From Pilibacter termitis (GTDB lineage: Bacteria; Bacillota; Bacilli; Lactobacillales; Streptococcaceae): a stretch of DNA of 64,000 nt. Made by a program: the position numbers and the translations under genes. The stretch is from the NCBI RefSeq assembly GCF_900167335.1, contig NZ_FUXI01000005.1, forward strand, positions 1 through 64,000, read 5' to 3'. Within the stretch, counting starts at the first letter, position 1; every line of letters begins with the position of its first letter. Positions 46,047-64,000 of this stretch are shown here, piece after piece. Below the pieces are notes generated by a model that worked only from the letters and a program-made list of their open reading frames with translations, had not been told where the DNA came from and ran no database searches.

Positions 46047-46055
46047 GCATTCGCT

Positions 46056-46336: not shown

Positions 46337-46939
46337 TTATTCTACCAATTTTCCATTTTCTAAATAAACTCTTTTTGTATAAATACTTTCCAATAGTTCG
46401 CTCTCATGATTGATGATAAAAAATGTTCTTTTTTTGCTACTGCACCTAATGATTTCTGTTATTCTCTCTAATGAATTTTTATCTATTCCATTTGTTGCCT
46501 CATCCAATACAATGTATTTGGCTTTCGACATAAAAGCCACAATTAATGCTAATTTTTTCTTCATACCAAATGAATATGTTTTGATTCTATTGAAAAGATA
46601 TGGCTGTATGTCGATTGATTTACACATTGAAATTAACTCAGAGTCATCTTTAGAGAAACCTAACATCTTTGCCGAAAACTCCAAAAATTCTTCTCCTGTT
46701 AGTTCTTCATATAAAAATGGGCTGTCACCAAGATAGTACATTGTGTCCTCAGAATGTTCAAAAATAACTTCCCCACTATCAACTGGTACAATACCTGTTA
46801 CTACTTTAAATAACGTTGTTTTCCCAACTCCGTTTTTTCCAATAATTCCATAGATTTCATTATCATGAAATGTATAGTCTATTTTATCAAACAGAAGAAA
46901 ATCTCCGTATTTCTTTTCTAAATTTTTTAAGTATAACAT
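46337..46939 (-). CDS. ABC transporter ATP-binding protein
   Basis: This 200-residue ATPase has Walker A GKNGVGKTT, a degenerate signature YSFGMKKK and Walker B YIVLDEATNGID. It is about the minimum length for a single NBD. It pairs with the membrane protein at 47076-48101 and the tiny ORF between them. The signature resembles that of the ATPase at 42814, so the two modules may be related. Confidence 0.88.
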   Translation of the reverse strand: MLYLKNLEKKYGDFLLFDKIDYTFHDNEIYGIIGKNGVGKTTLFKVVTGIVPVDSGEVIFEHSEDTMYYLGDSPFLYEELTGEEFLEFSAKMLGFSKDDSELISMCKSIDIQPYLFNRIKTYSFGMKKKLALIVAFMSKAKYIVLDEATNGIDKNSLERITEIIRCSSKKRTFFIINHESELLESIYTKRVYLENGKLVE

Positions 46940-46941
46940 GC

Positions 46942-47079
46942 TTATCCTCCTAAAGTTTTCGAGACAAACGCTTCTACAAACGCACTAAAAACGACTAACG
47001 GCATAATAAAGCGTAAATAAAAACTACCATATTCTTTGAGTAATGTCATTTTTGTTTTTGAACATTCTCTTCTCCTCAT
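46942..47079 (-). CDS. Tiny coupled membrane peptide (45 residues)
   Basis: The ATG overlaps the upstream stop as ATGA, and the stop lies 2 bases before the ATPase start, a fully packed operon position. The peptide has a basic N-terminus and one C-terminal TM segment (about 22-40). No good ribosome site is present, so it would depend on coupling. Not recognised. Confidence 0.45.
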   Translation of the reverse strand: MRRRECSKTKMTLLKEYGSFYLRFIMPLVVFSAFVEAFVSKTLGG

Positions 47080-48101: not shown

Positions 48102-48705
48102 ATCTTATAGCGTCATTTTTCCAAAAGGAGTCAAAGATTATTATTTTAAGCAAAATAATAATCAATCCTCGATTGAACTTGTGATTACTCAAGGATATAA
48201 AGCAACAGAAGTGACAAATCAAGCATTAAAACTTTTGAGGAATAAAGGGAACAATCGACTGAGTGGTACTTATGAAACATTTGATATGAGTGCTTTGACA
48301 GACGGAATTGGCAATGTGCTTTCAATGTTGACGTATTTCATTTCAGCGATTGCAGGAATTTCTCTTTTAATTGCTGGTGTCGGTGTGATGAATATGATGT
48401 ACATTTCTGTTGCAGAGCGAACAAAAGAAATCGGTATAAGGCGTGCTTTGGGTGCAAAACGGCGAGATATTCGTTTGCAGTTTTTGCTAGAAGGAGTTTT
48501 TCTTACCGTTATCGGTGGAATAATTGGCTATATTTTTGGTTTTCTGGTGGCTCTTACGATTTCTGTATTTCTTCCGTTTCAAGTAGCACCAGATTTCTTT
48601 ACTCTTTCCCTTGCTTTAGGTGTTTCTGGTTTCATTGGGATTTTGTTTAGTGTCATTCCAGCAAATAAAGCGGCAAATAAAGATTTGATTGAGATATTAA
48701 GATAG
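48100..48705 (+). pseudogene. 3' remnant of a MacB-type ABC permease gene
   Basis: The conserved reading continues upstream of the apparent GTG at 48181, through FPKGVKDYY and NNNQSSIEL codons, to about 48100, where it meets the start of the opposite-strand membrane gene. What remains is the end of the extracytoplasmic domain and a complete FtsX/MacB C-terminal permease domain (GVMNMMYISVAERTKEIGIRRALGAK is diagnostic). The N-terminal TM helix and most of the periplasmic-type domain are missing, with no ATPase partner beside it. It looks like a gene cut by arrival of the neighbouring ABC module. Confidence 0.8.
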
Positions 48706-48748
48706 AAAAGGACGCTCAAAACTCCCTTTAAGTTTTAAGCGTCCTTTT
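48706..48748. terminator. Terminator shared by the MacB remnant and allH
   Basis: AAAAGGACGCT and AGCGTCCTTTT form a strong stem. It overlaps the last codons of allH (stop at 48728) and would terminate transcription in both directions. Confidence 0.8.
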
Positions 48749-49543
48749 CATTCCCACAAAAATCCCAGCCATTGTATCTGCCCCAGACGTGCTACCACTT
48801 GCTAATAACGCTAAGAAACTGCTCTCGTGTGTTTGTGATAGAAAATCTATGATTAATGAGCTAAATTTCTTTTGTAGAGCAGCACGCAGATACATGGTTG
48901 AAACATCTGTTGTTCGCCTTTCGTGCAATAATTTTTCCAATATCGGATAAAATTGGCTGTCTAAAAGGTTGAAATGGCTATCGACAGACAGTAAACCTAC
49001 TAGAAAATCATCTCCCGAAGGAGTCAAACCGCACCCTCGACCTAAATAATACGTCAAACCTCTCTCTATCTTCTCTTCGTTTGTTGAAAACAGACAAGAG
49101 AGGGTTTCAGAATTTTCCTCAAGTTCTTCCGTAAAATCTAGTCCAGTCAAAAGTTTTATTCCTTGAATTTTCTTTGATTCAACAAACGGCTGGTGAATCG
49201 TAAGGTTTCCGTCATGTTCCTCTACTTCGTCAAAGTGAAAGGTTTCACCATTTGCAAGCAATGTCATGGTGTGAAATGTGGGCGGAAAAAATACAGAAAG
49301 TTTCTTTTCCATTTTCACCGCCTCTTTCAGTCGTAAAAATTCACTTGTTTCCATGTGAAGTCCAAACGGTGTAATGCCTTTTTCCAGATTGCCAATAAAA
49401 ATTAATTGGTTGTCTATTTGCATATTGAACCCACTTTGAAAAACGCTGTGAACTTTTAATTCTATCTCATTTTTCATTGAAGAATGAACTAGAGAAACGC
49501 TTAACATTTTCTTTACTAAACTGCCTATTTTGACTGATTTCAT
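48728..49543 (-). CDS. allH: Oxamate carbamoyltransferase subunit AllH (YlbF/DUF2877)
   Basis: This protein of about 271 residues belongs to the DUF2877 family. Diagnostic segments are GLTPSGDDFLVGLL (about 198-211) and the C-terminal GSTSGADTMAGIFVGM. In Escherichia coli AllF, AllG and AllH (formerly FdrA, YlbE, YlbF) together form oxamic transcarbamylase. The start is uncertain: the open frame extends into allG, but ATGs at 49543-49549 lie after the allG stop and have weak GGTG or AAAGG sites. It is the last gene of the cluster. Confidence 0.85.
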   Translation of the reverse strand: MKSVKIGSLVKKMLSVSLVHSSMKNEIELKVHSVFQSGFNMQIDNQLIFIGNLEKGITPFGLHMETSEFLRLKEAVKMEKKLSVFFPPTFHTMTLLANGETFHFDEVEEHDGNLTIHQPFVESKKIQGIKLLTGLDFTEELEENSETLSCLFSTNEEKIERGLTYYLGRGCGLTPSGDDFLVGLLSVDSHFNLLDSQFYPILEKLLHERRTTDVSTMYLRAALQKKFSSLIIDFLSQTHESSFLALLASGSTSGADTMAGIFVGMKRTLKT

Positions 49544-49568
49544 TTTCATCACCGTTTTTACTAACCTT

Positions 49569-50831
49569 TTATTTCTCCATTCCCAATTTTTCTGCGTAGG
49601 CACGGAGGGCTTTTTCAAAACAAGCAAGTGGCGGAGTAACCGTTCCTGCTCCGATTTGACCAATTCCTGCTTTTTTGTGAGCAATTCCTGTATTAATCAC
49701 AGGTAAAATGCCTGTTTCCACCACTTTTCTTGCATCAATGCCTAAGCAAATTCCCTTGAAATCCCACGTAGGAACTGGGAAATTCGGGTTGTGTGCAAGG
49801 CAAATTTCGGTCATATTGTCGCTAATTTCCAATGCCTCATAGAAGCCACCTGTTCCTACAAATCGTGTAACTGCTGGAGCAGCAATCATCGCCATTCCAC
49901 CTACTCCGAAAGTTTCCGTAATCGCACTGTCTCCAATATCTGTATTGGCATCTTCTGCTGAATATCCTGAGAAATACAGACCTTCTGGGGTATTTGCAGG
50001 TGCTGTAAACCAAGTATCGCCCATGCCACTAATGCGAATACCAAAATCTTTTCCATTTCGGCACATCGCAGTTACAACCGTTCCTTCTTGAATTTTCCTT
50101 GCTCCGTCCATCACTGCTTTTGAAGCTGCCATCATGATGTTGAGGAAAAATTGATCCGTATCCGCCAAAAATGTCAGCACTTCTTCTTTTTCCTTTTCAG
50201 AAATCACAAGTTTTGGAATAATCGGAGCAATTTCTTTTAAAAATGCTAGAGATGCGGCAATATTTCGCTGATGAAATTCGTCGCCCATCGCAATCGCTTT
50301 AGCAATCAAGACATTCAAATTCAAGCCATTTTCCAATGTTTTCAATGCTTTGCTCAATGTTGGTCCTAACACGTCACGCATCCAACTTAATCGCTTAATC
50401 ACCTCTGGAGAATACGCACCAAATCTAAGCACGGCACCAATTCCCTCGTTCATTGTGCAATACGCACGATTGTTGTCTGTTGCATTTTCCACTACAAATA
50501 CAGGCATATTTTGAGAGGTAATCCCTCCCATTGGTCCAACTGCTTGCACCTCGTGACAAGGGATAAAGGTAATTTTTCCATTTTCCAAAAGCTCCAGAGC
50601 CTCTTCTTCAGTAGTTGCCCAGCCCTCAAAAAGCGTTGCTCCGATACAAGAACCTTGCATTGGGTTTGTCATCTCATGAAATTGAATAGGCGGGCCTGCA
50701 TGAAGTAACACGTAATCCTTTAATTCTGCAATCACTTCTTTTGCTGGCACTACATCCAATAAGAATGGAGATGAGGCAATTATTTTGTCAATAACAGCTT
50801 GATTGGCTTGATCAATTGTTTGATAATTCAT
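49569..50831 (-). CDS. allG: Oxamate carbamoyltransferase subunit AllG (YlbE/DUF1116)
   Basis: This 420-residue DUF1116 protein has recognisable YlbE segments: HAGPPIQFHEMTNPMQGSC, FIPCHEVQAVGPMGGITS and VCRNGKDFGIRISGMG-type sequence. With AllF and AllH it transfers the carbamoyl group of oxalurate to phosphate, giving oxamate and carbamoyl phosphate, whose energy can be taken as ATP by carbamate kinase. GGAGG precedes the ATG. It is 24 bases from allF. Confidence 0.9.
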   Translation of the reverse strand: MNYQTIDQANQAVIDKIIASSPFLLDVVPAKEVIAELKDYVLLHAGPPIQFHEMTNPMQGSCIGATLFEGWATTEEEALELLENGKITFIPCHEVQAVGPMGGITSQNMPVFVVENATDNNRAYCTMNEGIGAVLRFGAYSPEVIKRLSWMRDVLGPTLSKALKTLENGLNLNVLIAKAIAMGDEFHQRNIAASLAFLKEIAPIIPKLVISEKEKEEVLTFLADTDQFFLNIMMAASKAVMDGARKIQEGTVVTAMCRNGKDFGIRISGMGDTWFTAPANTPEGLYFSGYSAEDANTDIGDSAITETFGVGGMAMIAAPAVTRFVGTGGFYEALEISDNMTEICLAHNPNFPVPTWDFKGICLGIDARKVVETGILPVINTGIAHKKAGIGQIGAGTVTPPLACFEKALRAYAEKLGMEK

Positions 50832-50854
50832 TTTCTCTACTTCCTCCGTTCATT

Positions 50855-52615
50855 TTATGATTTCTTAAATTGATAAGTATCTAAGAAATGTAAGATTTTT
50901 TGTAATTCGATATTTCCGCCTGCAACAGGTGCCCAATTGTATTGAACGACTTCCCCGTTGTTTTCAATGATAGACTCTGTAAAGCTCTTTAAACCTACGT
51001 TGATAACCGTTGGTTTTGTTGAAAGTAGTTCGCTCAATTCTTTTGAGGTTTTTGGTAACGGACTTTCGCATGAAATTTCTTTGCTTGCGTAGATTTCTTT
51101 TTCTACAAACTGAACTTCTTTGCCTAGTAATTTCAAAGCAGTTTGTACCGCTTGTGTATTATTTTCACAAACTGTCACACCAACTTCTTCTAAAATTTTC
51201 TTTTGCGTCTCCATTCCTTGAACGTCTAAATCTGTTCCGACAATTACCCCGATAAAAGCGACTTCTCTCTTTTGAAGAGCGAGTGTTTCTTGTACTTCCT
51301 TGATTACTTTTGCAAGACATTCTGCCATATTTTTATGTGCTCCGTAGCCAAGGACAATATCAAAGAGTACGGTTGCAACCGTTGAGTCGTTGACAATTTC
51401 TTTAATTTTTCCAATACGATTTTCTGGGTCAATCATCGGATGTGGTTTCCCATTCGTATAAATATCATCACCCAAATCAATGATACTATGCTCACTCGTC
51501 TGGAGCATGACTCCTTCTTTATGCTCCACTTCCTCAAGAACAAGAGCATCTTTCAAGAGCATTGACGCCTCATAAGCTAACGTGCCGCCTGCATAAAACC
51601 CACGAATACCGACTTGTTCGTTCGTCAATTTTACATTGAGTTTCTCTGGAGAACGTGGCGTGTATTGTACTGGCTCATGATTTTGGATTTTCGTTGCAAG
51701 TTGTGCAGTTTCTTCAAGCGTATAGGCTTGATAAATATTTTTTTCATGAAAACTTGGTTTTTCGCCAATAAAAATCGTTACCACAGGTTTAGAAATGGCA
51801 TGTAAAAGTTTCATCACTTTTTCCTTGATTTCTTTTGCAGGTGGCTTAGAAATCACGACAATTGTGTCAACATTCACATCTTCGTTCAATGCAACAATCG
51901 CATCAATCATGGAAATTGCCCCGACTTCTGATGACAAATCACGTCCACCTGTACCAATTGCATTGCTCACACCTTGACCATAACGGTGAATAAGTGTTGA
52001 AACTTCCTGTATGCCTGTGCCAGAGGCCCCCACAATCCCAATTTTTCCCGCACGAATGTTATTGGTGAATGCAAGTGGCAATGTGTGAAGAATCCCTGTC
52101 CCACAATCAGGTCCCATGACAAGCAAGCCTTTTTCATGTGCCAATTTTTTCAAACGAAGTTCTTCTTCTACTGGCACATTGTCGCTAAAAATAAATGCGT
52201 GCAACCCGTGATGAAGTGCTTTTTCCACTTCAAGTGGCACGTATGCTCCCGGAATTGAAAACAGAGCAACAGAGGCATTTTTCGCTTTTTTCAATGCTTT
52301 TTCCCACGAGTTCACATTTTCCTCTCGCACACCTTCTCCGTCCTGTTGTTTTAATAAATATTCATCTACTTTTTCCAGAACTTCTTTTTCATTGCCACCA
52401 TTTTCTAGCTCTAGCATGATGACCATGTCATTTGCTGATGCCTCTTTCATCTCTGGTGTATCAAATCCTGCGGCGATAAAAATATCTTTATTTGCAGGTG
52501 TTCCCATCATAATCGAAACACGTTTTACCGCATCAAGTTCATTGATTTTATTCGTTAAAAGCATTAAAACAACAGAGTCTTGATAACTATTTTTCTTAAT
52601 TATTGTTTGTAACAT
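50855..52615 (-). CDS. allF: Oxamate carbamoyltransferase subunit AllF (FdrA)
   Basis: About 586 residues from the ATG at 52615 (MLQTIIKKNSYQDSV), with GGGAG upstream. It has a succinyl-CoA synthetase alpha-like fold, with a CoA-binding-like N-terminal domain including GPDCGTGIL and GIVGASGTGIQEV, and a ligase-type second half with GGTLAYEASMLL. This matches FdrA. It acts with AllG and AllH on oxalurate. The predicted in-frame upstream start is less likely than this one because relatives begin at this ATG. Confidence 0.9.
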   Translation of the reverse strand: MLQTIIKKNSYQDSVVLMLLTNKINELDAVKRVSIMMGTPANKDIFIAAGFDTPEMKEASANDMVIMLELENGGNEKEVLEKVDEYLLKQQDGEGVREENVNSWEKALKKAKNASVALFSIPGAYVPLEVEKALHHGLHAFIFSDNVPVEEELRLKKLAHEKGLLVMGPDCGTGILHTLPLAFTNNIRAGKIGIVGASGTGIQEVSTLIHRYGQGVSNAIGTGGRDLSSEVGAISMIDAIVALNEDVNVDTIVVISKPPAKEIKEKVMKLLHAISKPVVTIFIGEKPSFHEKNIYQAYTLEETAQLATKIQNHEPVQYTPRSPEKLNVKLTNEQVGIRGFYAGGTLAYEASMLLKDALVLEEVEHKEGVMLQTSEHSIIDLGDDIYTNGKPHPMIDPENRIGKIKEIVNDSTVATVLFDIVLGYGAHKNMAECLAKVIKEVQETLALQKREVAFIGVIVGTDLDVQGMETQKKILEEVGVTVCENNTQAVQTALKLLGKEVQFVEKEIYASKEISCESPLPKTSKELSELLSTKPTVINVGLKSFTESIIENNGEVVQYNWAPVAGGNIELQKILHFLDTYQFKKS

Positions 52616-52669
52616 TCTTGAACATTCTCCCTTCTTCACCCTCAAATTGAGGATACTCCTTTAAACACT

Positions 52670-53746
52670 TCATTTTTTTGACCCTGCTGCAAATGCAGTG
52701 GAGTGGTCGTATTGGTTGCGGTGAATGATGTCGCTTTCTAGGTATTCATAGACTGATTTTGCAATCGGAATACCTTTTTCTTGGTTTTCTTCAGCGATTT
52801 TTTCCGACAGCTCGCCCGGATATAATACTTCGCTAAAGCCATTTCCTGCTGGAATACTATGAAGTTCATCAATCATTTGGCTTAGACGTGCCTTGAATGT
52901 CTCAAGGTCGGTAAAATAGGTTGGATTTATCACAATGTGTAATTGACCAAGATTCCTTTTTTCCGTCATGTCGTTATACATACTCGTCACGTGTTTTCCA
53001 AAAGGAAGTCCTAGCAAACTGCCAGAGAGAATATCCACCATCATCATCAAACCATACCCTTTTGCACCTGCAATCGGCAATAAGCCTTGCACTTCATAAG
53101 GGTCTGTTGTCGCATTTCCCTCTTTGTCGACTGCCCAAGTGTCTGGAATAGAATGATTTTTACTTCTCGCATCCAAAATTTTCCCCCAAGCCTGTACTGT
53201 CGTTGCCATATCAAAAACAATCGGACGTTTTTTATTTGTCGGTGCAGCAAATGCAATTGGGTTCGTGCCAAAATAATTTTCTCGCCCACCGAACGGGACG
53301 ACCATTGGATCTGATTGACAAACGGAAATAGCGACTAAGTCTTCTCTTGCTGCCATATCTACATAATAAGAAAGTGTGCCACTATGCCCCATTTCTCTTA
53401 CACCTACTACTCCAATTCCACTTTCCTTGGCAAGTTTGATTGCCTCCTCCATTCCTTTTTTCGCCACCATATGACCTGCTCCATTATCTCCATGAAAAAT
53501 TCCAGTGCTTGCTCCTGTTTTTTCAAAGCGAAGTTTTGGCTCTAATGTCGTGCCTCCTTTTGAAATACGCTCAGCATAATATTCTACACGAACTGCTCCA
53601 TGTGAATGAATGCCTCGAATATCTGCAAACACTAGATTATCCGCAATATCTCCTGCATATTCCTCGGATAAACCAGCTTTTGATAATTTTTTTACAATTT
53701 TTTCTTTTAATTCAAAAGCTCCTAGTCTAATCACTTCATTTTCCAT
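52670..53746 (-). CDS. allD: Ureidoglycolate dehydrogenase (NAD+)
   Basis: This 358-residue member of the malate/L-lactate dehydrogenase (Ldh_2) family oxidises ureidoglycolate to oxalurate. Visible features are the conserved RGIHSHG (about 43-49), the catalytic GHSGTLSYYVDMA region, FGTNPIAFAAPT and GAKGYGLMMMVDILSG. Its place between allE and allF supports AllD rather than another Ldh_2 enzyme. GGAGAG precedes the ATG. Confidence 0.93.
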   Translation of the reverse strand: MENEVIRLGAFELKEKIVKKLSKAGLSEEYAGDIADNLVFADIRGIHSHGAVRVEYYAERISKGGTTLEPKLRFEKTGASTGIFHGDNGAGHMVAKKGMEEAIKLAKESGIGVVGVREMGHSGTLSYYVDMAAREDLVAISVCQSDPMVVPFGGRENYFGTNPIAFAAPTNKKRPIVFDMATTVQAWGKILDARSKNHSIPDTWAVDKEGNATTDPYEVQGLLPIAGAKGYGLMMMVDILSGSLLGLPFGKHVTSMYNDMTEKRNLGQLHIVINPTYFTDLETFKARLSQMIDELHSIPAGNGFSEVLYPGELSEKIAEENQEKGIPIAKSVYEYLESDIIHRNQYDHSTAFAAGSKK

Positions 53747-53823
53747 TTTGCTCTCTCCATTCCAAGATTTTCTACTGATTTATATTCCCTTTTAGATAAG
53801 GGCATCTCTAAAAATCAGTAAAT

Positions 53824-54612
53824 TTATATTTCTGCATCTCGGTGACAATCTTTTGAGTAGAGATAACTTAATGGTTCATCACGTCCTGTTGCGTAGCAGG
53901 CTTGCAAGCTATATGCTCCCATGAAAATGTAATCTCCTTTTTGTACTGGCACCCAATCGTTGTCTAGGTTATACATTCCTTGCCCAGAAAGTAACAATGC
54001 TCCATGCTCTTGAACGTGTGTTTCAATATACCCATGGCTTGCCCCCGGAGCGAAACTTAAAATGTGGAAGTTCATATCAAAATCAATTTCTGCTGGCAAT
54101 AAATCAACTAATTGCACATCTTCCATTCCTTCATAGGCTTGAGATTTCAACTCATTGACATTTCCAATAACCGTGTAAGGTTTTGCTCCTTCAAGTTCTT
54201 GGTATCTTTTTTTGTAAAGGAATAATTCTGTCGCTTCTTCGCTTGTATTTTCAAAATAAATTTTCACACCTGCTGGAGCGTAGACATATCCTCCTGTGCT
54301 AAGCTCTTTCGTTTCTGTATCATCCGTTTTAACAGAAAGTTTTCCTTTGACAACGTATAAAAAGACTTCAATCCCTTCATCGCCAAAACCTTTGACATTT
54401 TTTCCATTTGGCAAGACTTTACAAATATAATCTACAAAGCTCGCACCTAGTTTTTTCGTGCTTAAAATTGTCATTTCGCAATTCTCGAAATTCGGCACAA
54501 CGTTTTTCACCAATCCGTCTGGGGGAATGAGGGCATAATTGCCACGTTTCATAATCGCACGTGATGATAATAATTCCTTTGTATAACCAATTTGGTTTGT
54601 TTTGTATCCCAT
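53824..54612 (-). CDS. allE: (S)-Ureidoglycine aminohydrolase
   Basis: This 262-residue bicupin hydrolyses ureidoglycine to ureidoglycolate and ammonia and usually binds Mn. It matches E. coli YlbA/AllE along its length, with [55 protein letters not shown] and the C-terminal YIYSKDCxRDxEI-type ending. HVQEHG gives metal-ligand histidines in the second cupin. CGGAG precedes the ATG. Confidence 0.95.
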
Positions 54613-54696
54613 AATAATTCTCCGTTTCTTTTTTACTACTGCCTAACCCTTTTTCTTTTTTCCACGAAACTCTGTCTCTCTCCTAAATTTCCGCAT

Positions 54697-55914
54697 TTAT
54701 CGTTTTTTATTGACGATGAGGAAGAAAATCGCTGTGACAACTAAAATGGCAGCTGCTATATAAAATCCCATAATTTTAGAACCTGTGCTGTCGGAAATCA
54801 TTCCTGTAATGGCTGGTGCCAAAACGGAAGAACTCATACCGAAAAAGTTGAATATTCCAAAAGTTGTTCCATAATTCTCTTTGGAGGCACTGTCACCAAT
54901 GAACGAAATGATAATCGGCTCTACTGCTAATTTTCCTAACAAACCGTATAAAATCAATCCGATTAATAACAACGTAGCATTTGGTGATTTTACCACGAGA
55001 AAAAGCATACCCGCTGCTGCAAGCTCTAAAAAGAGTATAAAACTGATTTTCTTTTCCTTAAATTTGTCAGACAATCGGCTGAAAAATAACGCTCCCGGAA
55101 TTGCCGCAAAAGCTACCAATGCCGAAGAAAAACCAATCGCAAGACCTTTAAAACCACGTTCTTCCTGTAAAAATGAAGGCAACCATGTCACAATCATGTA
55201 ATAACTATAACAAGTGCCAAAGTATAAAAGATAAGAGGCAATCATGTGAATATTGAACAAAGAACTGATTTTAATTTTTTCTTTTTTCTTCTCAACTGCT
55301 TGTTCTTCTACTTTTTCACTTTTTACGCTAGATTTTATGCCACGTGCAAATACTAGCACCATGACAAGAATCGTAATTGAACAGATATACATCATCATTT
55401 GCCAAGGCAAACCAACGCTTTTCACCAGCAAACTAGAGCCAATCAAGCCAATGCCCATACCAACGGCAGAACCGCTGTTGATAATCGCAGTGGAAAGTCC
55501 ACGTCTTTCGCTTGGAATACATTCACTTGACAGCGAATAGGCTGAACCATAATAAGACCCGCACCCTAAACCTGCAATAAAACTACCAATATAAATGGTC
55601 ATAAGCGTGCCAGATTTGGCAATCAAAAATGCTGCCGCTGCAAAAATAAGAAAGCCCGGAATTAACACAATTTTTCTACCTAGTTTGTCAACCAGTATCC
55701 CTGCTGGAATTTGCATTCCTGTATAACCAAAGAAATAACAGCTTGAAATCAATCCCATTTGAGCATTTGAATGAATCCCAATAGATTGCTGTATTTCTGG
55801 AAATAGCGGGGTAAGTGCTGAACGATAAATCCAAATGGCAATCCACCCCATACAGAGCATGACGATTACTTTTTGCCAATATGGAACGCCTGTTTTTGCT
55901 TCTGAAATTTCCAT
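54697..55914 (-). CDS. Major facilitator superfamily transporter
   Basis: About 405 residues from the ATG at 55914 (MEISEAKTG), with AGGAG 7 bases upstream. Twelve TM helices, the loop-2/3 motif GILVDKLGRKIV and FSRLSDKFKEKK at the mid loop fit MFS. The open frame upstream of this ATG is repeat sequence and is not coding. The cluster position suggests uptake of allantoate, another ureide or glyoxylate-related acid; the substrate is inference. The end of a family A repeat (GCTAGAC) directly abuts its ribosome site. Confidence 0.88.
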   Translation of the reverse strand: MEISEAKTGVPYWQKVIVMLCMGWIAIWIYRSALTPLFPEIQQSIGIHSNAQMGLISSCYFFGYTGMQIPAGILVDKLGRKIVLIPGFLIFAAAAFLIAKSGTLMTIYIGSFIAGLGCGSYYGSAYSLSSECIPSERRGLSTAIINSGSAVGMGIGLIGSSLLVKSVGLPWQMMMYICSITILVMVLVFARGIKSSVKSEKVEEQAVEKKKEKIKISSLFNIHMIASYLLYFGTCYSYYMIVTWLPSFLQEERGFKGLAIGFSSALVAFAAIPGALFFSRLSDKFKEKKISFILFLELAAAGMLFLVVKSPNATLLLIGLILYGLLGKLAVEPIIISFIGDSASKENYGTTFGIFNFFGMSSSVLAPAITGMISDSTGSKIMGFYIAAAILVVTAIFFLIVNKKR

Positions 55915-55926
55915 TTTAATTCTCCT

Positions 55927-56292
55927 GTCTAGCTGTGAGGGGCAGGAGGGTGTCGCTGTTCGCAATGCCACCTGAAGCTCTGCTTCAGGCAAGTAAATGG
56001 CATGGCTCTCTGCGACAAACTCCTGAACGCCCCTCGTAGCTTTTCGTTTTGTCTAGCTGTGAGGGACAGGAGGTGGGTCGCTGTTCGCAATGCCACCTGA
56101 AGCTCTGCTTCAGGCAAGTGAATGGCATGGCTCTCTGCGACAAACTCCTAAACGCCCCTCGTAGCTTTTCTTTGTCTAGCTACATGGTGCTGAAGTTTGG
56201 CAACTGTTCGCAACTGCACTGGAAACTTACGTTTCCAGCAAGTAAATGCTGTGGCTCACTGTTGCAAACTTCAAAACGCACCATTTCGCTTT
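55927..56292 (-). repeat. Tandem array of three family A palindromic repeats
   Basis: Copies are at 55927-56045, 56051-56170 and 56174-56292. The first two have inner hairpins CTGAAGC/GCTTCAG and middle arms TGCCA/TGGCA. The third has CTGGAAAC/GTTTCCAG, and its outer clamp ATGGTGC/GCACCAT replaces AGGGGC/GCCCCT on both sides. The array starts directly at the allC stop codon (TAA followed by AAAGCG) and ends at the MFS ribosome site. Confidence 0.92.
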
Positions 56293-57525
56293 TTATTCTT
56301 CGTAAGCCAGTTTGTAAAGTGAAGAAACTAACGCTTTTACACCTTCTACTAAATCTTTTGTTTCTGTCGCTTCTGCTGGATTGTGGCTAATGCCTGCAAT
56401 ACTTGGAACAAATAACATTGCCGTTGGTACAAATTGAGCAAAAATTTGAGAGTCATGTCCTGCACCACTGTGCATGAGTTGATAATCAAGTCCTTGTTCT
56501 TGACAAGAAGTTTCAAGCACTTTCACGATTTTTTCACACATTGGTACTGGTTTTTCGTCCATCCAACAATCAATGTCAATTGCCAATCCAAGTTCTTCTG
56601 CAATTTGTTTCATATCATTTTCAAGAATTTGTGTAAATTCATTGAGTTTTCCTTGGTCGGTATGACGGCAATCCATTGAGAAAACAACTTTTCCGGGAAC
56701 TACATTGACCGTATTTGGCATTACTTCCACATGACCAAACGTCAAAACAGTAGGATTTCCTTGAGCATTTGCTTTTTCAATGCTTTGGCTGACAATTTTG
56801 CTGTATCCGTAAATTGCATCTCTACGATATTCCATAGGAGTGGTTCCTGCATGGTTCGCCTCACCACTTAGAGTAATCGTATAACGTTTTTGACCAACAA
56901 TCGCATTGACCACACCAACGGATTTACCAATACGCTCCAAAACGTTTCCTTGTTCAATGTGAATTTCTACAAATGCCTTAATGTCATTACGGAATCGATT
57001 ATCCTCATCACGAAAATCAAATCCAGACTCTCGCATTGCCGTGACAAACGGCACTCCGTTTGCATCCGTTGCATTTTCAACATCACTTCGTTTAGCAAGT
57101 CCCCAAATATTTTTACTTCCCCAAAAAGCATATGGGAAACGACTTCCTTCTTCTTCTGCCATTGAAATGACTTCCAGACTTCTAAGCGGTTGACCGTACG
57201 TTTCTTTGAGGTATTTCACGGCAAGATACGCTGCGACAATCCCAAATTGACCGTCAAGACTTCCTCCGTTTACAACAGTATCTACGTGACTTCCTGACAT
57301 AATCGTTTCTTCTGGGTATTTACTTCCTGTCAAACGACCAAATAAATTCCCAACTTCGTCGAATGTTGTACTTAAACCAATTCCCTCGAATTTCTCTTTT
57401 AAACCATTTTGAGCAATTCGCCAATTTTCGTCGTACAACAAGCGACTAATCCCACCTGTTGGATCGCTACCAATCGCAGATAGCCAGCTAATGTTTTCTT
57501 CGACTTCTTGATAAAAGTTCTCCAT
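56293..57525 (-). CDS. allC: Allantoate amidohydrolase (M20 family)
   Basis: This 410-residue metal-dependent amidase converts allantoate to ureidoglycine, CO2 and ammonia. Metal ligands are visible as GSHVDTV, the GGSLDGQFG Asp, the EEGSRFP Glu and EIHIEQG His, with the closing HSGAGHDSQIF region. The AllC/ureidopropionase group differs little in sequence, but the neighbours point to AllC. GAGG precedes the ATG, and a cre-like box lies about 90 bases upstream. Confidence 0.93.
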   Translation of the reverse strand: MENFYQEVEENISWLSAIGSDPTGGISRLLYDENWRIAQNGLKEKFEGIGLSTTFDEVGNLFGRLTGSKYPEETIMSGSHVDTVVNGGSLDGQFGIVAAYLAVKYLKETYGQPLRSLEVISMAEEEGSRFPYAFWGSKNIWGLAKRSDVENATDANGVPFVTAMRESGFDFRDEDNRFRNDIKAFVEIHIEQGNVLERIGKSVGVVNAIVGQKRYTITLSGEANHAGTTPMEYRRDAIYGYSKIVSQSIEKANAQGNPTVLTFGHVEVMPNTVNVVPGKVVFSMDCRHTDQGKLNEFTQILENDMKQIAEELGLAIDIDCWMDEKPVPMCEKIVKVLETSCQEQGLDYQLMHSGAGHDSQIFAQFVPTAMLFVPSIAGISHNPAEATETKDLVEGVKALVSSLYKLAYEE

Positions 57526-57612
57526 TTCGTATTCCTCTTTTCTTTTTATTTTTTTGGAAAATCCTTGTGCTACACCTTTTTAGCCTTAGAAATTCCTTTA
57601 CCTTACACTTAT

Positions 57613-57628
57613 ATTGTAATCGTTTGCA
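57613..57628 (-). promoter_or_regulatory. Probable CcpA cre site upstream of allC
   Basis: On the minus strand TGCAAACGATTACAAT matches the cre consensus TGNAARCGNWWWCAW in full (only the optional W before it is G). A TATAAG -10-like box overlaps its downstream end, so CcpA binding would block the promoter. The rest of 57526-57720 is AT-rich without a gene. Confidence 0.65.
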
Positions 57629-57720
57629 CCTGGATTTCATTAGTTGGTTTAAACAAGAATAAAAACAATCTTTATCATTTTTATACAAAGACTTTTTTCT
57701 TAAAAACACCAGCTCCTCTA

Positions 57721-57763
57721 AAAAAAGAAACAATCACCTCACGCAAACAAAGCGATTGTTTCT
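57721..57763 (-). terminator. Terminator after the small cupin gene
   Basis: GAAACAATC and GATTGTTTC form a stem followed on the minus strand by seven T residues. It separates the cupin/glyoxylate genes from the allC group, giving allC its own transcription unit. Confidence 0.8.
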
Positions 57764-57772
57764 TATTGGCAC

Positions 57773-57825
57773 GGTTACCCAAATTATTGATTTTCGCTTA
57801 AACGGAATTTTTAAAGGTACCCTTA
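57773..57825. repeat. Partial inverted-repeat family B copy
   Basis: GGTTACCC at the left, a core similar to other copies (AAATTATTGATTTTCGC) and GGAATTTTTAAAGGTACCC at the right. The left terminal arm is missing. It ends just before the stop codon of the cupin gene. Confidence 0.65.
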
Positions 57826-57827
57826 TA

Positions 57828-58184
57828 TTATTCTGGTAAAATGAGATCCATTGGCTGTGGGCCTGCTACGCCTATTACCACAAAATCCTCATCACCTGTA
57901 TTCGTCATGCCATGCTGATCACCCGGATAAGAAATAATCATGTCCCCGCTTGTAATTTCTACTTCTTCGTTTGGACGTGGGTAAAATGTACCTGTTCCTC
58001 GCACAACAATCCACAAATCATCCGAAGTCGTATGCGAATGAGTAAAAATACTCTGCCCCGGTCTCAAGCACCATACTGCACCTGCAGTTTTTTCTGTTTC
58101 ATAAAAAATATTTTTCTTGCCTTCTTTTTCACAAAAACTCGTTACATCCGTCAACTTAAATAAACGTTCACTTATTGGATTCAT
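57828..58184 (-). CDS. Small cupin-domain protein
   Basis: 118 residues from the ATG at 58184 (MNPISERL), with AAGGAG upstream; earlier in-frame codons lie in repeat DNA. A single cupin barrel has metal-ligand candidates in THSHTTSDDLW and GDQHGMTN. It is not AllE (a bicupin), and no ureidoglycolate lyase signature is evident. It may be an enzyme or sensor for a small acid in the glyoxylate branch. Function unknown. Confidence 0.75.
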   Translation of the reverse strand: MNPISERLFKLTDVTSFCEKEGKKNIFYETEKTAGAVWCLRPGQSIFTHSHTTSDDLWIVVRGTGTFYPRPNEEVEITSGDMIISYPGDQHGMTNTGDEDFVVIGVAGPQPMDLILPE

Positions 58185-58216
58185 ATTGGTCTCCTTATTC
58201 CATTTTTTTCTTTTTT

Positions 58217-58460
58217 GTCTAGCTGTGAGGGGCAGGAGTTGGGCGACTGCTCGCAATGTCGCTTGAAGCTAACGCTTCAAGTGAATGAACGACATAGTTC
58301 GCTGTCGCAAACTCCTGAACGCCCCTCTACACTTTTCTTTGTCTAGCTACATGGTGCTGAAGTCTGGCAACTGTTCGCAACAGCACTGGAAACTACGTTT
58401 CCAGCAAGTAAATGCTGTGGCTCACTGTTGCAGACTTCAAAACGCACCATTACGCTTTTA
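58217..58460 (-). repeat. Tandem pair of family A palindromic repeats
   Basis: Copies are at 58217-58337 and 58341-58460. The first has outer arms CAGGAGTTGGGCGAC/GTCGCAAACTCCTG, middle arms TGTCG/CGACA and inner CTTGAAGC/GCTTCAAG. The second has the ATGGTGC/GCACCAT clamp, TGAAGTCTGGCAAC/GTTGCAGACTTCA arms and inner CTGGAAAC/GTTTCCAG. The pair begins a few bases after the glxK stop. Confidence 0.92.
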
Positions 58461-58466
58461 TTTTTT

Positions 58467-59624
58467 CTATTTATTCAAATTACCTTTAAACAATTGAGCA
58501 AATCGGAACAGTTGTTGGGTTGTTTTGCGAATTGCTTCTTTTGTTGATTGTGTTGATAGTATTTCTTGTTCGTTTGCGATACGTTGAATGGTGGGGAAAA
58601 AGGCAGAGATACCCATTTGATTGCATTTTTCTGCGTCTTTTGATACTCCTCCAGCAAGAGCAATGACTTTTTTTCCGTGTTTTTTCGCCATACTTGCCAC
58701 CGCAACGGGAACTTTTCCCATAAGTGATTGAGAATCAAGCATTCCCTCACCTGTTACCACTAAATCAGCTTGTTTGATTTTTTCCTCCAAGCCTGTCAAA
58801 CTCGCAATTTCTTCAAATCCTGACACGAGCCTTGAATCAAAATAGGAAAGAAAAGAAAAGGCAATTCCTCCTGCTGCTCCAGAACCCTCGTGTTCTCGGC
58901 ATTGTTTGTGGGTTACTTCTTCGGTTAGGCGACTAAAATTCAAAAGCAACTCATCTATTTCTTGCATTTCGTTTTCTTTGACACCTTTTTGTTTGCCAAA
59001 TACATAGGTTGCTCCGTTTTCACCGCATAAGACATTGCGAACATCACTTGCAAGTTTAAAGCGACATTCTTTCAATTCTGGTAGAAGTCCTTGACAGTCA
59101 ATTTTCGCTAGTTTTCGCATATCTTTGAGCAAATAACCTAGACTTTTTCCATTTTCATCTTGAAAATCAACGCCTAATGCACTCAACATTCCAATCCCTG
59201 CATCATTTGTCGCACTACCACCCAAACCAATCAGAAAATCTCTATATCCTTTTTTCACCAAGGAACGAATTTGCTCACCAAAGCCATAAGTGGTCGCCTC
59301 CCAAGGATTGAGAAGTTCTTTTTTCACAAGCGTAATGCCAGAAGTCTCGGCAATTTCTAAAATTGCGGTTTGATTTAAAATGCCGTATTTTGCAATAACC
59401 GATTTCTCAAACAACGGTCCTTGCACAAAACTGTAAGACGTAGGCTCTTGATTTTGATAAAAAATAGAATCTATCGTCCCCTCCCCACCGTCTGCTATTG
59501 GGGAAACAAAGACTTGCGGAACGTCATGTTCATACGCTTCTTCTATTCCTTTTTTCACTGCCTCTCCTGCTTCAATGGAGGTGACACTTCCCTTAAAGGA
59601 GTCCATTACAACCAATATTTTCAT
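58467..59624 (-). CDS. glxK: Glycerate kinase (GlxK/GarK type)
   Basis: This 385-residue kinase phosphorylates D-glycerate. Family features are the N-terminal MDSFKGSVTSIEAGEAVKKGI, PIADGGEGTIDS, GLGGSATNDAGIGML and the C-terminal VVTGEGMLDSQSLMGK. Enzymes of this class give 2- or 3-phosphoglycerate. It closes the glyoxylate branch (Gcl, Hyi, hydroxypyruvate reductase, kinase). AAGGAG precedes the ATG, 32 bases after the reductase gene. Confidence 0.95.
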   Translation of the reverse strand: MKILVVMDSFKGSVTSIEAGEAVKKGIEEAYEHDVPQVFVSPIADGGEGTIDSIFYQNQEPTSYSFVQGPLFEKSVIAKYGILNQTAILEIAETSGITLVKKELLNPWEATTYGFGEQIRSLVKKGYRDFLIGLGGSATNDAGIGMLSALGVDFQDENGKSLGYLLKDMRKLAKIDCQGLLPELKECRFKLASDVRNVLCGENGATYVFGKQKGVKENEMQEIDELLLNFSRLTEEVTHKQCREHEGSGAAGGIAFSFLSYFDSRLVSGFEEIASLTGLEEKIKQADLVVTGEGMLDSQSLMGKVPVAVASMAKKHGKKVIALAGGVSKDAEKCNQMGISAFFPTIQRIANEQEILSTQSTKEAIRKTTQQLFRFAQLFKGNLNK

Positions 59625-59656
59625 TTCTTCGTTCTCCTTGTGCTACTTCAAGTATT

Positions 59657-60616
59657 TTATTGATTTACCACATTTACAGGAGTTGACGCCAAGAATTTTG
59701 CTACATTTTCTACTGCAATATTCATCAATCGTTCTCTTGCCTCCTTGGTTGCCCAAGCAATATGTGGTGTGATAATAATATTTTTCGCTTTTAACAATGG
59801 ATTGTCGCTATTAATTGGCTCTGTTGAAACAACGTCAAGTGCTGCTCCTCTGATTTTTCCACTGTTCAATGCTTCTGCAACATCTGCCTCGTTGATAAGC
59901 GGACCACGTGAATTATTTATCAACATCACTCCGTCTTTCATTTTAGCAATGCTTTCTTTATTAATCATTCCCTCAGTTTCTGGGAATAGCGGGCAATGAA
60001 GTGAAATGACATCACTCTCACTCAACAATTCATCTAATTCAACAAATGTTGCTTGTGCGTTTGGCACATTTGCGTGTTTGTCGTAAGCAAGAATTTCCAT
60101 ACCGAGAGCTTGAGCAATTTCACCAACTTTTTGCCCAATACGACCAAAGCCAATAATCCCTAGTTTTTTGCCAGAAAGCTCCGTCAATGGATGTAGCCAG
60201 TAGCACCAATCTTGATTGTTCGTCCATTCTCCACGTTTTACACTATCCGAATGTTCTCCTATATGATGACACAATTCAAGCAAGAGAGCAATCGCATATT
60301 GAGCAACTGTATCTGTTCCGTAGGTTGGGATATTTGTCACAAGTATTCCTGCCTCTTTTGCTGCTTGTATATCTACCACATTATACCCTGTTGCCAATAC
60401 ACCAATATATTTCAAATTCGGTATAGCATCGAAAATTGTTTTCGTCAAAGGCGTTTTATTGGTCAACACAATTTCAGCCTCTCCAATACGTTCAACAATT
60501 TCCTTCTCTGACAATTTGCTACGATCATAAACCGTCAAATCTCCCAAATTGCCTAGTTTGTCCCATGATAAATCCCCCGGGTTTTCTGTATAACCGTCTA
60601 AAACAACAATTTTCAT
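59657..60616 (-). CDS. D-2-hydroxyacid dehydrogenase, probable hydroxypyruvate reductase
   Basis: This 319-residue protein has the NAD-binding GIIGFGRIGQKVGEIAQ (about 153-169), catalytic Arg in INNSRGPLIN, Glu in the STEPINSDNPL region and His in TPHIAWAT. The D37-type Asp after the first Rossmann strand (LAYDKH) favours NADH. Glycerate dehydrogenases have this layout. In context it should reduce hydroxypyruvate, made by Hyi, to D-glycerate. AAAGG precedes the ATG. Confidence 0.88.
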   Translation of the reverse strand: MKIVVLDGYTENPGDLSWDKLGNLGDLTVYDRSKLSEKEIVERIGEAEIVLTNKTPLTKTIFDAIPNLKYIGVLATGYNVVDIQAAKEAGILVTNIPTYGTDTVAQYAIALLLELCHHIGEHSDSVKRGEWTNNQDWCYWLHPLTELSGKKLGIIGFGRIGQKVGEIAQALGMEILAYDKHANVPNAQATFVELDELLSESDVISLHCPLFPETEGMINKESIAKMKDGVMLINNSRGPLINEADVAEALNSGKIRGAALDVVSTEPINSDNPLLKAKNIIITPHIAWATKEARERLMNIAVENVAKFLASTPVNVVNQ

Positions 60617-60678
60617 AATGAATTCCTTTCGTTTTCTTCATAAATGATCAAAACTTGAGTTTCGCCTGCTTTTCTTTG

Positions 60679-61166
60679 GATAGCTATGAGTGGCTGAAGT
60701 TTGGCAACTGCTCACAATGTCGCTCACAACTTTGTTGTGAGTAAATAAACGACAGTATTCGCTGTTGCAAACTTCAAACCGCCCCTCTTGCTTTTCTGTG
60801 TCTAGCTATGAGGGGCAGGGTTTTGGTCGTTGTTCGCTATGCCACTTGAAGCTTTGCTTCAAGCAAGTAAATGGCATGGCTCACTACGACAAAACCCTGA
60901 ACGCCCCTCTCCGCTTTTCTGTGTCTAGCTACGAGGGGCAGGAGTTTGGTCGCTGTTCGCAATACCACCTGAAGCCGTGCTTCAAGCAAGTAAATGGCAT
61001 GGCTCACTACGACAAAACCCTGAACGCCCCTCTCCGCTTTTCTGTGTCTAGCTACGAGGGGCAGGAGTTTGGTCGCTGTTCGCAATACCACCTGAAGCCG
61101 TGCTTCAGGCAAGTAAATGGCATGGCTCACTACGACAAACTCCAGAACGCCCCTCTCCGCTTTTCT
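60679..61166 (-). repeat. Tandem array of four family A palindromic repeats
   Basis: Copies are at 60679-60797, 60800-60920, 60923-61043 and 61046-61166. Copy 1 has inner CTCACAAC/GTTGTGAG. Copy 2 has outer CAGGGTTTTGGTCGT/ACGACAAAACCCTG and inner CTTGAAGC/GCTTCAAG. Copy 4 has outer CAGGAGTTTGGTCG/CGACAAACTCC and inner CTGAAGC/GCTTCAG. Copy 3 is a hybrid: left half like copy 4, right half like copy 2. The array starts directly at the hyi stop codon. Confidence 0.93.
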
Positions 61167-62069
61167 TTACTCCTCCAATAATGCCCATGCTCTGTTTATC
61201 ACACGTTTTGTTTGTGCGATTACTATATCGGCATCTTCGTATGCTCGTGGGGTTACTTCAAATGATAAAATCATTGGGTTGTGTTTGTCAAATAATCCCT
61301 CATTTTTGCAGACTTGGAAGAAATCTAGTAGTTCTTCTGTTCCATTTTCACTATTTGGGAAATCAAAACGTGGGTGCAAATCACCAAATGCCTCACAATC
61401 TTCCTTGATTACTGCATTCCCAATGTGCAAATGTGTAATGTATGGTCGAGTTGTTTGAATCACGAACTTGCTTGTTTCGTGCGTAATCGGGAAATGTGAC
61501 AAGTCAACAATCAATCCAAAATTATTGCACACATTGCGAACATCTCCTGCAAATTTTGCCGCAAGAGGTGCAGGACCTATCAAGGATTTTTTATCCACAT
61601 CAAAATCGAACACTTCTAGCTCAACGCTCATCTCTTTTTCAGCTGCATATTTACAGACATTGATCGTTGTTTTCAATAATTGAGCATATGCCACTTCTTT
61701 CGTTTCTTCCTCGTATTTTCCTGACAAAAAGGCAATTCCTTTTGCACCAAGATATTCCGCCTCGTCCACTGATTCCAAGAGAATTTTCTCTGCTTTTAAG
61801 CGTTCTGTTTCATCCAGTGCATTTGGGTTTAAACCGCCGCCCAATAAACGTGGTTGCACGCCATATGCCACACGCAAACCAGATTGTGCAATAAGTTCTT
61901 TGACTTCTTTGCGTTTTTCTTCGTCTGCAATATGTGTAATTTCTACTGCACGAAAATCTGCATCTTTTGCTACATTTTTCAACGTTTCTAGCACATCATA
62001 ACGTGCTTGTGGATAACTCATAAATTGAATTAAACCTAAATCAAAGTATTTTGCTAATGGTTCTTTCAT
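61167..62069 (-). CDS. Hydroxypyruvate isomerase-like TIM-barrel protein
   Basis: This 300-residue AP-endonuclease-2/xylose-isomerase-like barrel has metal-ligand candidates in VELEVFDFD, LIVDLSHFPIT, THLHIGN and the late LSFEVTPR. Hydroxypyruvate isomerase (Hyi) interconverts tartronate semialdehyde and hydroxypyruvate and usually follows gcl, as here (18 bases downstream). Sequence alone does not exclude another sugar-acid isomerase, but context supports the Hyi role. GGAAGG precedes the ATG. Confidence 0.75.
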   Translation of the reverse strand: MKEPLAKYFDLGLIQFMSYPQARYDVLETLKNVAKDADFRAVEITHIADEEKRKEVKELIAQSGLRVAYGVQPRLLGGGLNPNALDETERLKAEKILLESVDEAEYLGAKGIAFLSGKYEEETKEVAYAQLLKTTINVCKYAAEKEMSVELEVFDFDVDKKSLIGPAPLAAKFAGDVRNVCNNFGLIVDLSHFPITHETSKFVIQTTRPYITHLHIGNAVIKEDCEAFGDLHPRFDFPNSENGTEELLDFFQVCKNEGLFDKHNPMILSFEVTPRAYEDADIVIAQTKRVINRAWALLEE

Positions 62070-62087
62070 TTTTCGTTCCGTCCTTCC

Positions 62088-63761
62088 TTAATCTCCAAAA
62101 TTACGAATATTGTCAAGGGCTACACCCATGTCGCAAAGTTGTTCTGGTTCGCAAATGACATCAATTACTACACTTTTCTCTGATTTTTTCGCTTTCTCTA
62201 GTGCCAAACGTAACTCATCTGGAGTAAAGACACGTTCACCCACACAACCATAACCTTCTGCCACTTTTACATAATCAATCAATCCATTTTGATTGTATGG
62301 CATATCTACACCGTACTCAAAATCATAGGCAACCTTTTGATTTTGTCTGATTAATCCTAAATAGGCATTGTTGACAATTACGGTAATCATTGGTTTTTCA
62401 TACGCTGCGGAAACGGCGATTTCTTCTCCCATAAAGGTAAAACCGAAATCTCCAAGCACAGTAACAGAGGTAGCTGTTGGGTCTGCGACTTTTGCACCAA
62501 AGGCAGCAGGCACTTCAAATCCTAACGTTCCCGCACCTCCTGACGGTAAATAACGTCTTGGGCGATTAATCTCTTGCAATTGCCCACTCCAAATTTGCGT
62601 AATTCCGCACCCTGCTGTAAACATGGTATTTTCATCAAAGACTTCATTTAATTCCTTGAATACACGATGTGGTTTGATTGGCGTATCATCAAAATCCGTT
62701 TTACGTGCCAATTCTTTCCGCCACTCTGGCAGTTTCTCAATTTCTTTGCGACCAACTGCACCAAGATTGCGTTTTTCAGCCACTTCAAGCAACATTTCTA
62801 AAGCAATTTTCGCATCAGAAACAATCCCTAAATCTGGCTGGAATACTTTCCCGATCTGCGTTGGTTCAATGTCGATGTGAATAAATTTCCGTCCATGTCT
62901 ATATACTTCTAAATTCCCTGTATGACGGTCTGTAAAGCGATTACCAATTCCGATAATCAAATCAGATTCCAAGAAAATTTTGTTCCCGATTGGCTGACCT
63001 ACTTGAATCCCCGCATGACCTGCATTGAGCGGATGATTGATTGGAACTCCACCTTTTGCCATATACGTTTGGATAATCGGAATTTGAAGTTTTTCAGCAA
63101 ATTGAATAAGTTTTTCTTCTGATTTTGAAAGAATCACTCCACCTCCCATAATAATTGCAGGCATTTTTGCCTCCTCAATCATATCCAACACTTTTTCAAT
63201 TTCAGCGTAGCTCGCAGAAATTTTCTGGATTGCTTTTGGCTCGTATTGCTCAATGTCAAACTCAATTTCTTGTTGCTGAATATCAAGTGGTAAGTCAAGT
63301 AAAACAGGGCCGGGCTTGCCTGAACGCATGAGATAAAATGCTTCACGCATAATTTCAGGAATTTTTTCAGCCTCTAGCGGACAATATACTTTTTTACAAA
63401 CACTTGAGGCAATGCTTACCATATCAACACATTGGAACGCATCTTGTTTTAATTGCCAACTATTTGCCTGACCTGTAATTGCCAAAACTGGAATAGAGTC
63501 AATATTTGCCGTATAAAGTCCTGTCACAAAATTCGTTGCTCCGGGTCCTGACGTACAAATAGCCAACGCAATTTTATGTTTGGCACGATAATAACCGTCT
63601 GCCGCATGAACACAAGCCTCCTCATGACGCATACAATAATGCTCAATCGGAGCATTTTCCATGTATTTGTAGACTGGGTTTATCCCCGCCCCCGGTATTC
63701 CGAAAGCATCTTGAATACCTTCTTTTACCATAATTTGTACTATTGCTTCTGCAACCTTCAT
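62088..63761 (-). CDS. gcl: Glyoxylate carboligase (tartronate semialdehyde synthase)
   Basis: About 557 residues from the ATG at 63761 (MKVAEAIVQ), with GAGAGGAG upstream. This ThDP enzyme condenses two glyoxylates to tartronate semialdehyde plus CO2. It resembles E. coli Gcl in LMRSGKPGPVLLDLPLDIQ, RFTDRHTGNLEVY, HIDIEPTQIGKVFQPDLGIVSDAK and NNAYLGLIRQ. The ThDP motif is GDFGF with the downstream NN. At the position where E. coli Gcl has Val51 (RHVEGA), this protein has Glu47 (RHEEAC), the usual ThDP-activating Glu. It is the first gene of the cluster. Confidence 0.85.
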   Translation of the reverse strand: MKVAEAIVQIMVKEGIQDAFGIPGAGINPVYKYMENAPIEHYCMRHEEACVHAADGYYRAKHKIALAICTSGPGATNFVTGLYTANIDSIPVLAITGQANSWQLKQDAFQCVDMVSIASSVCKKVYCPLEAEKIPEIMREAFYLMRSGKPGPVLLDLPLDIQQQEIEFDIEQYEPKAIQKISASYAEIEKVLDMIEEAKMPAIIMGGGVILSKSEEKLIQFAEKLQIPIIQTYMAKGGVPINHPLNAGHAGIQVGQPIGNKIFLESDLIIGIGNRFTDRHTGNLEVYRHGRKFIHIDIEPTQIGKVFQPDLGIVSDAKIALEMLLEVAEKRNLGAVGRKEIEKLPEWRKELARKTDFDDTPIKPHRVFKELNEVFDENTMFTAGCGITQIWSGQLQEINRPRRYLPSGGAGTLGFEVPAAFGAKVADPTATSVTVLGDFGFTFMGEEIAVSAAYEKPMITVIVNNAYLGLIRQNQKVAYDFEYGVDMPYNQNGLIDYVKVAEGYGCVGERVFTPDELRLALEKAKKSEKSVVIDVICEPEQLCDMGVALDNIRNFGD

Positions 63762-63829
63762 TTGTATTCTCCTCTCGTGAGAGAATAAGAAAAATTTCAC
63801 TTATTCCTCTTTTTCTTCTTAGAAACTCA

Positions 63830-63886
63830 ACACCTTAAAACAAGTGAAGTACGCGGAAACAATATTTCTACTACATTTTAAGGTGT
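63830..63886 (-). promoter_or_regulatory. Leader hairpin upstream of gcl
   Basis: ACACCTTAAAA (63830-63840) and TTTTAAGGTGT (63876-63886) are perfect 11-bp inverted arms around a 35-base loop, about 70 bases before the gcl start. There is no T run, so it is more likely a regulatory or stabilising structure than a terminator. Confidence 0.5.
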
Positions 63887-63943
63887 CGCATTTTTCGTGT
63901 GGCTTATCCGCCTCACCTGTAAAAATAGTATCACGTTCCTTTT

Positions 63944-63959
63944 CGGATAACTTTATCCG
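63944..63959. promoter_or_regulatory. Candidate operator upstream of gcl
   Basis: CGGATAACTTTATCCG is a 7-2-7 dyad, and a further half-site TTATCCG occurs at 63904-63910, about 40 bases away. Paired sites like these around a promoter suggest a regulator of the cluster. No regulator gene for it is in the window. Confidence 0.45.
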
Positions 63960-64000
63960 CTTTCAACAAAGAAACTCTATTTTTTTATTTATCCTGCACA

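Follow-up and report, generated by a model that had tools for sequence, protein, structure and literature searches.

A glutamate-bearing branch of glyoxylate carboligase-like ThDP enzymes, represented in an allantoin gene cluster of Pilibacter termitis

The window, i.e., the whole stretch of 64,000 nucleotides of Pilibacter termitis DNA that was analysed, encodes close to its end a ThDP enzyme which resembles glyoxylate carboligase (Gcl) of E. coli, yet carries a glutamate, Glu47, at the position of Val51 of that enzyme. This residue marks a Glu-type branch that is real and conserved, and that is most useful as a set of natural comparisons for a mechanistic question of long standing. We assign a probability of roughly 80% to the reading that the window protein is itself a glyoxylate carboligase (tartronate-semialdehyde synthase) which makes use of the canonical glutamate, its substrate being predicted from its relatives and its gene neighbourhood.

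Among ThDP enzymes, which as a rule depend on an activating glutamate, Gcl is the textbook exception. Introduction of this residue into E. coli Gcl (V51E; Kaplun, 2008) reportedly speeds the early steps and slows carboligation. Tartronate semialdehyde is also said to have been made by extracts of Streptococcus allantoicus (Valentine, Drucker and Wolfe, 1964), an allantoin-fermenting streptococcus with a glyoxylate fermentation. The role of the conserved glutamate in ThDP activation has been summarised (PMC13327070), and a survey from 2012 (PMC3534367) regards the valine as characteristic of the Gcl family as a whole. The kind of enzyme is known, and the Glu-type branch is a variant which the family description given in that survey excludes. 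No description of a Glu-type Gcl was found in the open-licence literature.

A Gcl-like protein with glutamate at the Val51 position

The gene and the codon in question are located as follows.

62088 to 63761, minus strand: Glu-type glyoxylate carboligase-like ThDP enzyme of 557 aa; three TPP-enzyme Pfam domains, best NCBIfam models those of Gcl (below cut-off), 46% identity to E. coli Gcl
63621 to 63623, minus strand: GAG codon of Glu47, the counterpart of Val51 in E. coli Gcl, in the motif MRHEEACVH; placed by pairwise and multiple alignments

The length of 557 aa is counted from the ATG at 63761, while the mechanical open reading frame reaches a GTG at 63800 (570 aa). A phmmer search against PDB returned Gcl as the top match (E. 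coli 8BEO, 512 bits), the best acetolactate synthase scoring 294.8 bits. The motif MRHEEACVH aligns with ARHVEGASH, and the query letters ‘rheea’ are paired with ‘RHVEG’ of E. coli Gcl (2PAN/8BEO), which places Glu47 on Val51; the motif is free of gaps, a single gap being present approximately ten columns upstream. Glu47 also falls in the E. coli V51 column of the multiple alignments. The earlier note had claimed precisely this equivalence, together with a likeness to Gcl in the remainder of the protein, and the observation is confirmed.

The AlphaFold2 model of the 557-residue protein (mean pLDDT 89.5) matches the structure of E. coli Gcl along 556 residues at 1.5-1.6 A with a Z score of about 51, a structural alignment that reports aligned ranges and not site coordinates, while comparison with acetohydroxyacid synthase gave Z scores of 45.5 or less. 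The nearest solved ThDP enzyme is thus Gcl by both fold and sequence. In the model a helix begins at residue 47.

The curated glyoxylate carboligase models TIGR01504 and NF008431 are the best models for this protein, although its scores of 578.4 of 711.2 bits and 675.8 of 791 bits lie below both cut-offs. Since the protein has Glu47 in place of the valine by which the family is defined, and also fails both NCBIfam cut-offs, it is filed here as a member of a Glu-type branch with a predicted Gcl-like function. Public records may well list individual Glu-type sequences as Gcl.

Glutamate and valine among relatives

The sequence set was assembled from one genome-contig scan, of which 80 of 106 loci were kept, and from two whole-genome searches at E <= 1e-130. 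One row (L034), truncated before the site, was dropped; L001 is the window itself, and L002 is of the acetolactate-synthase type. Among the 101 Gcl-like rows aligned, 59 (the window included) read Glu and 42 (E. coli included) read Val, a ratio which represents no census because the set was gathered by similarity to a Glu-type query. Clustering at 99% identity yields 51 Glu and 38 Val clusters; eight of the 59 Glu rows are near-identical repeats, and these were retained in the raw counts. A match was found in 12 of 395 genomes of the order sample and in 10 of 398 genomes of the phylum sample, in each case with the own genome included, and all of these matches read Glu.

The Glu rows derive from Bacillota, Spirochaetota, Chloroflexota, Nitrospirota and others, and the Val rows from proteobacteria, actinobacteria and one Desulfobulbaceae MAG. 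Glutamate is also present in all three acetolactate-synthase-type outgroups. The earlier note had treated Glu47 as a quirk of a single protein, a view that gives way to that of a residue marking a whole branch. Chance or a sequencing error at this codon was considered and rejected, as the glutamate stands in each of the 59 rows of this type that can be read there.

Two trees were computed from subsets of the 59 and 42 rows available, one from 41 Glu and 12 Val rows and the other from 26 Glu and 7 Val rows, besides trees with single outgroups. In all of them the Val rows group as a single clade, which corresponds to one Glu/Val change, and they lie on a long branch of 0.9 to 1.1 changes per column in the first two. 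They are placed among the Glu rows in both of these and in two of three single-outgroup trees, the rows nearest to them being those of Chloroflexota (L046), of the Bacillota side (G720/L102) and of Methylomirabilota. The tree of 26 Glu and 7 Val rows joins the 7 Val rows to 5 Glu rows in a group with a support of 100/100. With EcIlvI as the sole outgroup, the Val rows fall outside and the Glu rows form one clade (support 58), and the AU test rejects neither a single Glu clade (p 0.145) nor a clade of Val plus L102 (p 0.327). The rooting is therefore unstable, i.e., nested versus sister placement of the Val type shifts with the outgroup. By parsimony valine is the derived state, because the acetolactate-synthase-type outgroups read Glu, and we infer an ancestral Glu that was replaced by Val a single time, in the ancestry of the E. 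coli enzyme. On balance we lean towards a history in which glyoxylate carboligation arose with the canonical glutamate and persists in this form in many anaerobes, the loss of the glutamate being a later and single event on one long branch, alongside which other changes became fixed.

Pocket residues and the choice of donor

In 23 columns, one residue is present in at least 95% of the 101 Gcl-like rows and absent from all three acetolactate-synthase-type references; these columns include L413, I471, H280 and E48 (window numbering) and A28, E52, H285, L421, F451 and I479 (E. coli numbering). Q115 and R284 (E. coli numbering) are invariant in Glu and Val types. Conversely, 45 columns hold a residue that is fixed (at least 95%) in the Val type but hardly ever occurs in the Glu type; among them are V51 itself, D82, D113, N283, A399, L404, D448 and R484. 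The window protein keeps the pocket residues Q115, R284, L421, L476, L478 and I479 of E. coli Gcl (EC 4.1.1.47; PDB 2PAN, 8I01, 8BEO), with which it also shares the fold, but besides Val51 (Glu) it has replaced D113 by A, N283 by D, I393 by C, P420 by T, D448 by G and R484 by K, and is devoid of the C-terminal tail and of most of the insertion near 498-507.

The earlier note had further proposed that the enzyme could prefer pyruvate-type donors, in which case it would be acetolactate-synthase-like and Glu47 simply the usual family residue. With EcIlvI, EcIlvB and the AlsS-type L002, i.e., with acetolactate/acetohydroxyacid synthase, it does share the ThDP fold and the canonical glutamate, and at several of the 45 columns (N77, F276, D278 and Y479, window numbering) the Glu type has the acetolactate-synthase letter and differs from the Val type. 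A glutamate at this site is also the rule of the wider superfamily, occurring in 94% of sequences according to the survey (PMC3534367) as well as in the three references, a fact that speaks for a pyruvate donor. The acetolactate synthase model TIGR00118 gives 492.7 bits, which does not reach its cut-off of 538.35 and is exceeded by both Gcl models. Identity to the three synthases amounts to 31-33%, and the family-specific pocket residues differ. The acetolactate synthase pocket pattern, which we take to be Met/Val/(Trp) as seen against three references, is replaced in the window protein by Leu413, Ile471 and Asn474, though the Trp is absent from EcIlvB too. No ilvN/ilvH match was found near any Glu locus, a search that a distant or diverged copy could escape, and the own genome carries L002 as a separate acetolactate-synthase-type homologue. 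Together with the 23 Gcl-shared columns and an allantoin, glycolate and glycerate gene context that includes neighbours of the glycerate route (see below), these data speak against a preference for pyruvate, which we regard as very improbable.

It could also be envisaged that the glutamate is present yet catalytically idle, the pocket working as it does in E. coli Gcl. The residues L413, L470, I471, Q110 and R279 indeed match those of the E. coli pocket; on the other hand, further columns have changed together with the Glu site, and such idleness is made unlikely by the invariance of the glutamate in 59 of 59 readable rows, to the extent that we give this reading the least credence of all. Kinetics different from those of E. 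coli Gcl, as suggested in the earlier note, would be plausible.

The gene cluster of the window

Downstream of gcl and on the same strand, the genes are arranged in the following order.

61167 to 62069, minus strand: xylose-isomerase-like TIM barrel (PF01261), 300 aa; 26 of 59 Glu-type loci have a relative next to gcl
59657 to 60616, minus strand: D-2-hydroxyacid dehydrogenase, 319 aa; family from profile matches
58467 to 59624, minus strand: glycerate kinase, 385 aa (TIGR00045, 379.9 bits against a cut-off of 168.45)
57828 to 58184, minus strand: small cupin (PF07883), which travels with the module in Enterococcus-like loci
56293 to 57525, minus strand: allantoate amidohydrolase (AllC-like), 410 aa; Peptidase_M20, similarity to AllC relatives
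54697 to 55992, minus strand: major-facilitator transporter; mechanical open reading frame, start probably further in, family judged by eye, relatives near gcl in L003 and L004
53824 to 54612, minus strand: (S)-ureidoglycine aminohydrolase-like double cupin (AllE); domain match, pairs with AllE
52670 to 53746, minus strand: ureidoglycolate dehydrogenase-like protein (AllD, PF02615); domain match and relatives
50855 to 52645, minus strand: AllF/FdrA-like oxamate carbamoyltransferase subunit; domain match and relatives
49569 to 50831, minus strand: AllG (PF06545), oxamate carbamoyltransferase subunit; domain match
48728 to 49684, minus strand: AllH (PF11392), oxamate carbamoyltransferase subunit; domain match, mechanical open reading frame whose true start should lie further in, as it overlaps AllG

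A PucR-type regulator (purine catabolism family) is encoded divergently just beyond the end of the window. The allantoin/glycerate setting resembles that of E. coli Gcl, but the predicted reductase and isomerase belong to families different from those found there. The glycerate kinase and the adjacent TIM barrel and dehydrogenase would make up a gene set leading from glyoxylate to glycerate. For the TIM barrel, for which a sequence search of PDB gave nothing at E 0.001, we propose the role of a hydroxypyruvate isomerase non-orthologous to E. coli Hyi, and for the dehydrogenase that of a hydroxypyruvate reductase/glycerate dehydrogenase.

Under the favoured reading, Glu47 would hydrogen-bond N1' of the cofactor and favour the imino form that gives rise to the C2 ylide, as in nearly all ThDP enzymes. 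Glyoxylate would then add to ThDP and lose CO2, and the resulting hydroxymethyl-ThDP carbanion would attack a second glyoxylate to yield tartronate semialdehyde. This product would be isomerised to hydroxypyruvate by the TIM-barrel protein and reduced to D-glycerate by the D-2-hydroxyacid dehydrogenase, after which glycerate kinase would form 2-phosphoglycerate.

Although genes for the conversion of allantoate to oxamate are present, no ureidoglycolate lyase AllA was found in the own genome, and allantoinase is represented there by a sub-threshold match alone (235.8 of 357.85 bits; G000:C23:84188-85462).

The operon is interrupted in two places by arrays of a 123-125 bp tandem repeat, at 60780-61166 (3.2 copies), which lies between the genes of the TIM barrel and the dehydrogenase, and at 55926-56181 (2.1 copies), near the transporter; the repeat unit has 82 matches across the own genome. 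The region 44000-64000 contains no RNA family match at gathering score. The small cupin accompanies the gcl-TIM-dehydrogenase-kinase genes in L003, L115, L116 and L118, even where allantoin genes are absent from the DNA examined.

Gene neighbourhoods of the two types

Glu-type relatives adjoin genes for hydroxypyruvate isomerase, tartronate-semialdehyde reductase, glycerate kinase and glycolate oxidase. In the DNA examined, gcl is flanked by an isomerase-like and a reductase-like gene in 33 of 59 Glu-type loci (26 of 51 by hand count without the eight near-identical rows), and by relatives of Hyi and TSR in eight of 59 (seven of 51, counted likewise), compared to 40 of 41 Val-type loci for the latter pair. 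An IclR-type regulator is present in 42 of the 59. The gcl-TIM-dehydrogenase-all order is kept in Trichococcus and Bacillus loci, with a kinase relative of the MOFRL type. Hyi and TSR like those of E. coli occur in Moorella, in Nitrospiraceae, in the Chloroflexota locus L046 and in G720, the last two of which also possess glycolate oxidase genes, with the orders hyi-glxR-gcl(Glu)-glcDE in L046 and gcl(Glu)-hyi-glxR-glcE-glcD-glycerate kinase in G720 (L111).

The isomerase and reductase pair is absent from the DNA examined in 26 of 59 Glu-type loci, some of which lie on short contigs while others, from Spirochaetota and Methylomirabilota, have long flanks; the latter may have a different activity. 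A mixed carboligase acting on glyoxylate and another partner, or a Glu branch of several activities of which only part is Gcl, would account for such loci without pathway neighbours, as well as for seven loci (L005, L006, L012, L019, L020, L095 and L096) in which the neighbours of gcl go beyond the glycerate route and include an FAD oxidoreductase and, in many cases, ABC transporters of the sugar type. The window cluster, however, ends in glycerate kinase, and the gcl-TIM-dehydrogenase order is kept in close relatives, and we therefore consider a mixed activity rather unlikely. Counted against the Gcl reading, which we continue to prefer, are the sub-cut-off scores with both curated models, the 26 loci without the gene pair, the absence of AllA as a source of glyoxylate, and the single Glu clade that is obtained with EcIlvI alone and is not rejected by the AU test.

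The FAD oxidoreductase of the seven loci is of the PF12831 family, and several of these loci also carry, besides the transporters, an 850-aa protein without a Pfam match; they may point to another glyoxylate-yielding substrate. In the Spirochaetota loci L021, L022, L024 and L034, gcl is found near genes for a diguanylate cyclase, an IclR regulator and HcyBio (homocysteine biosynthesis), with a phosphofructokinase-like gene nearby in the first three, and glycerate-route neighbours are absent from all four.

Implications

‘Candidatus Dichloromethanomonas elyunquensis’ is a member of the Bacillota. In strain RM of this anaerobe, the annotated Gcl prokka_21461 rises strongly together with GlxR, Hyi and Gck on dichloroacetate (PMC8092247).

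Natural Glu/Val pairs allow a comparison that bears on why the glutamate was lost, as opposed to single mutants of one enzyme, and this comparison names the columns that changed alongside it. If glyoxylate carboligation did arise with the canonical glutamate and lose it in one later event, the reaction does not require the absence of the glutamate, and it is the accompanying changes that make a Glu-free pocket work. As curated Gcl models and Val-based motifs miss the branch, current annotation may understate the use of glyoxylate and allantoin by Gram-positives of the gut and by anaerobic ones.
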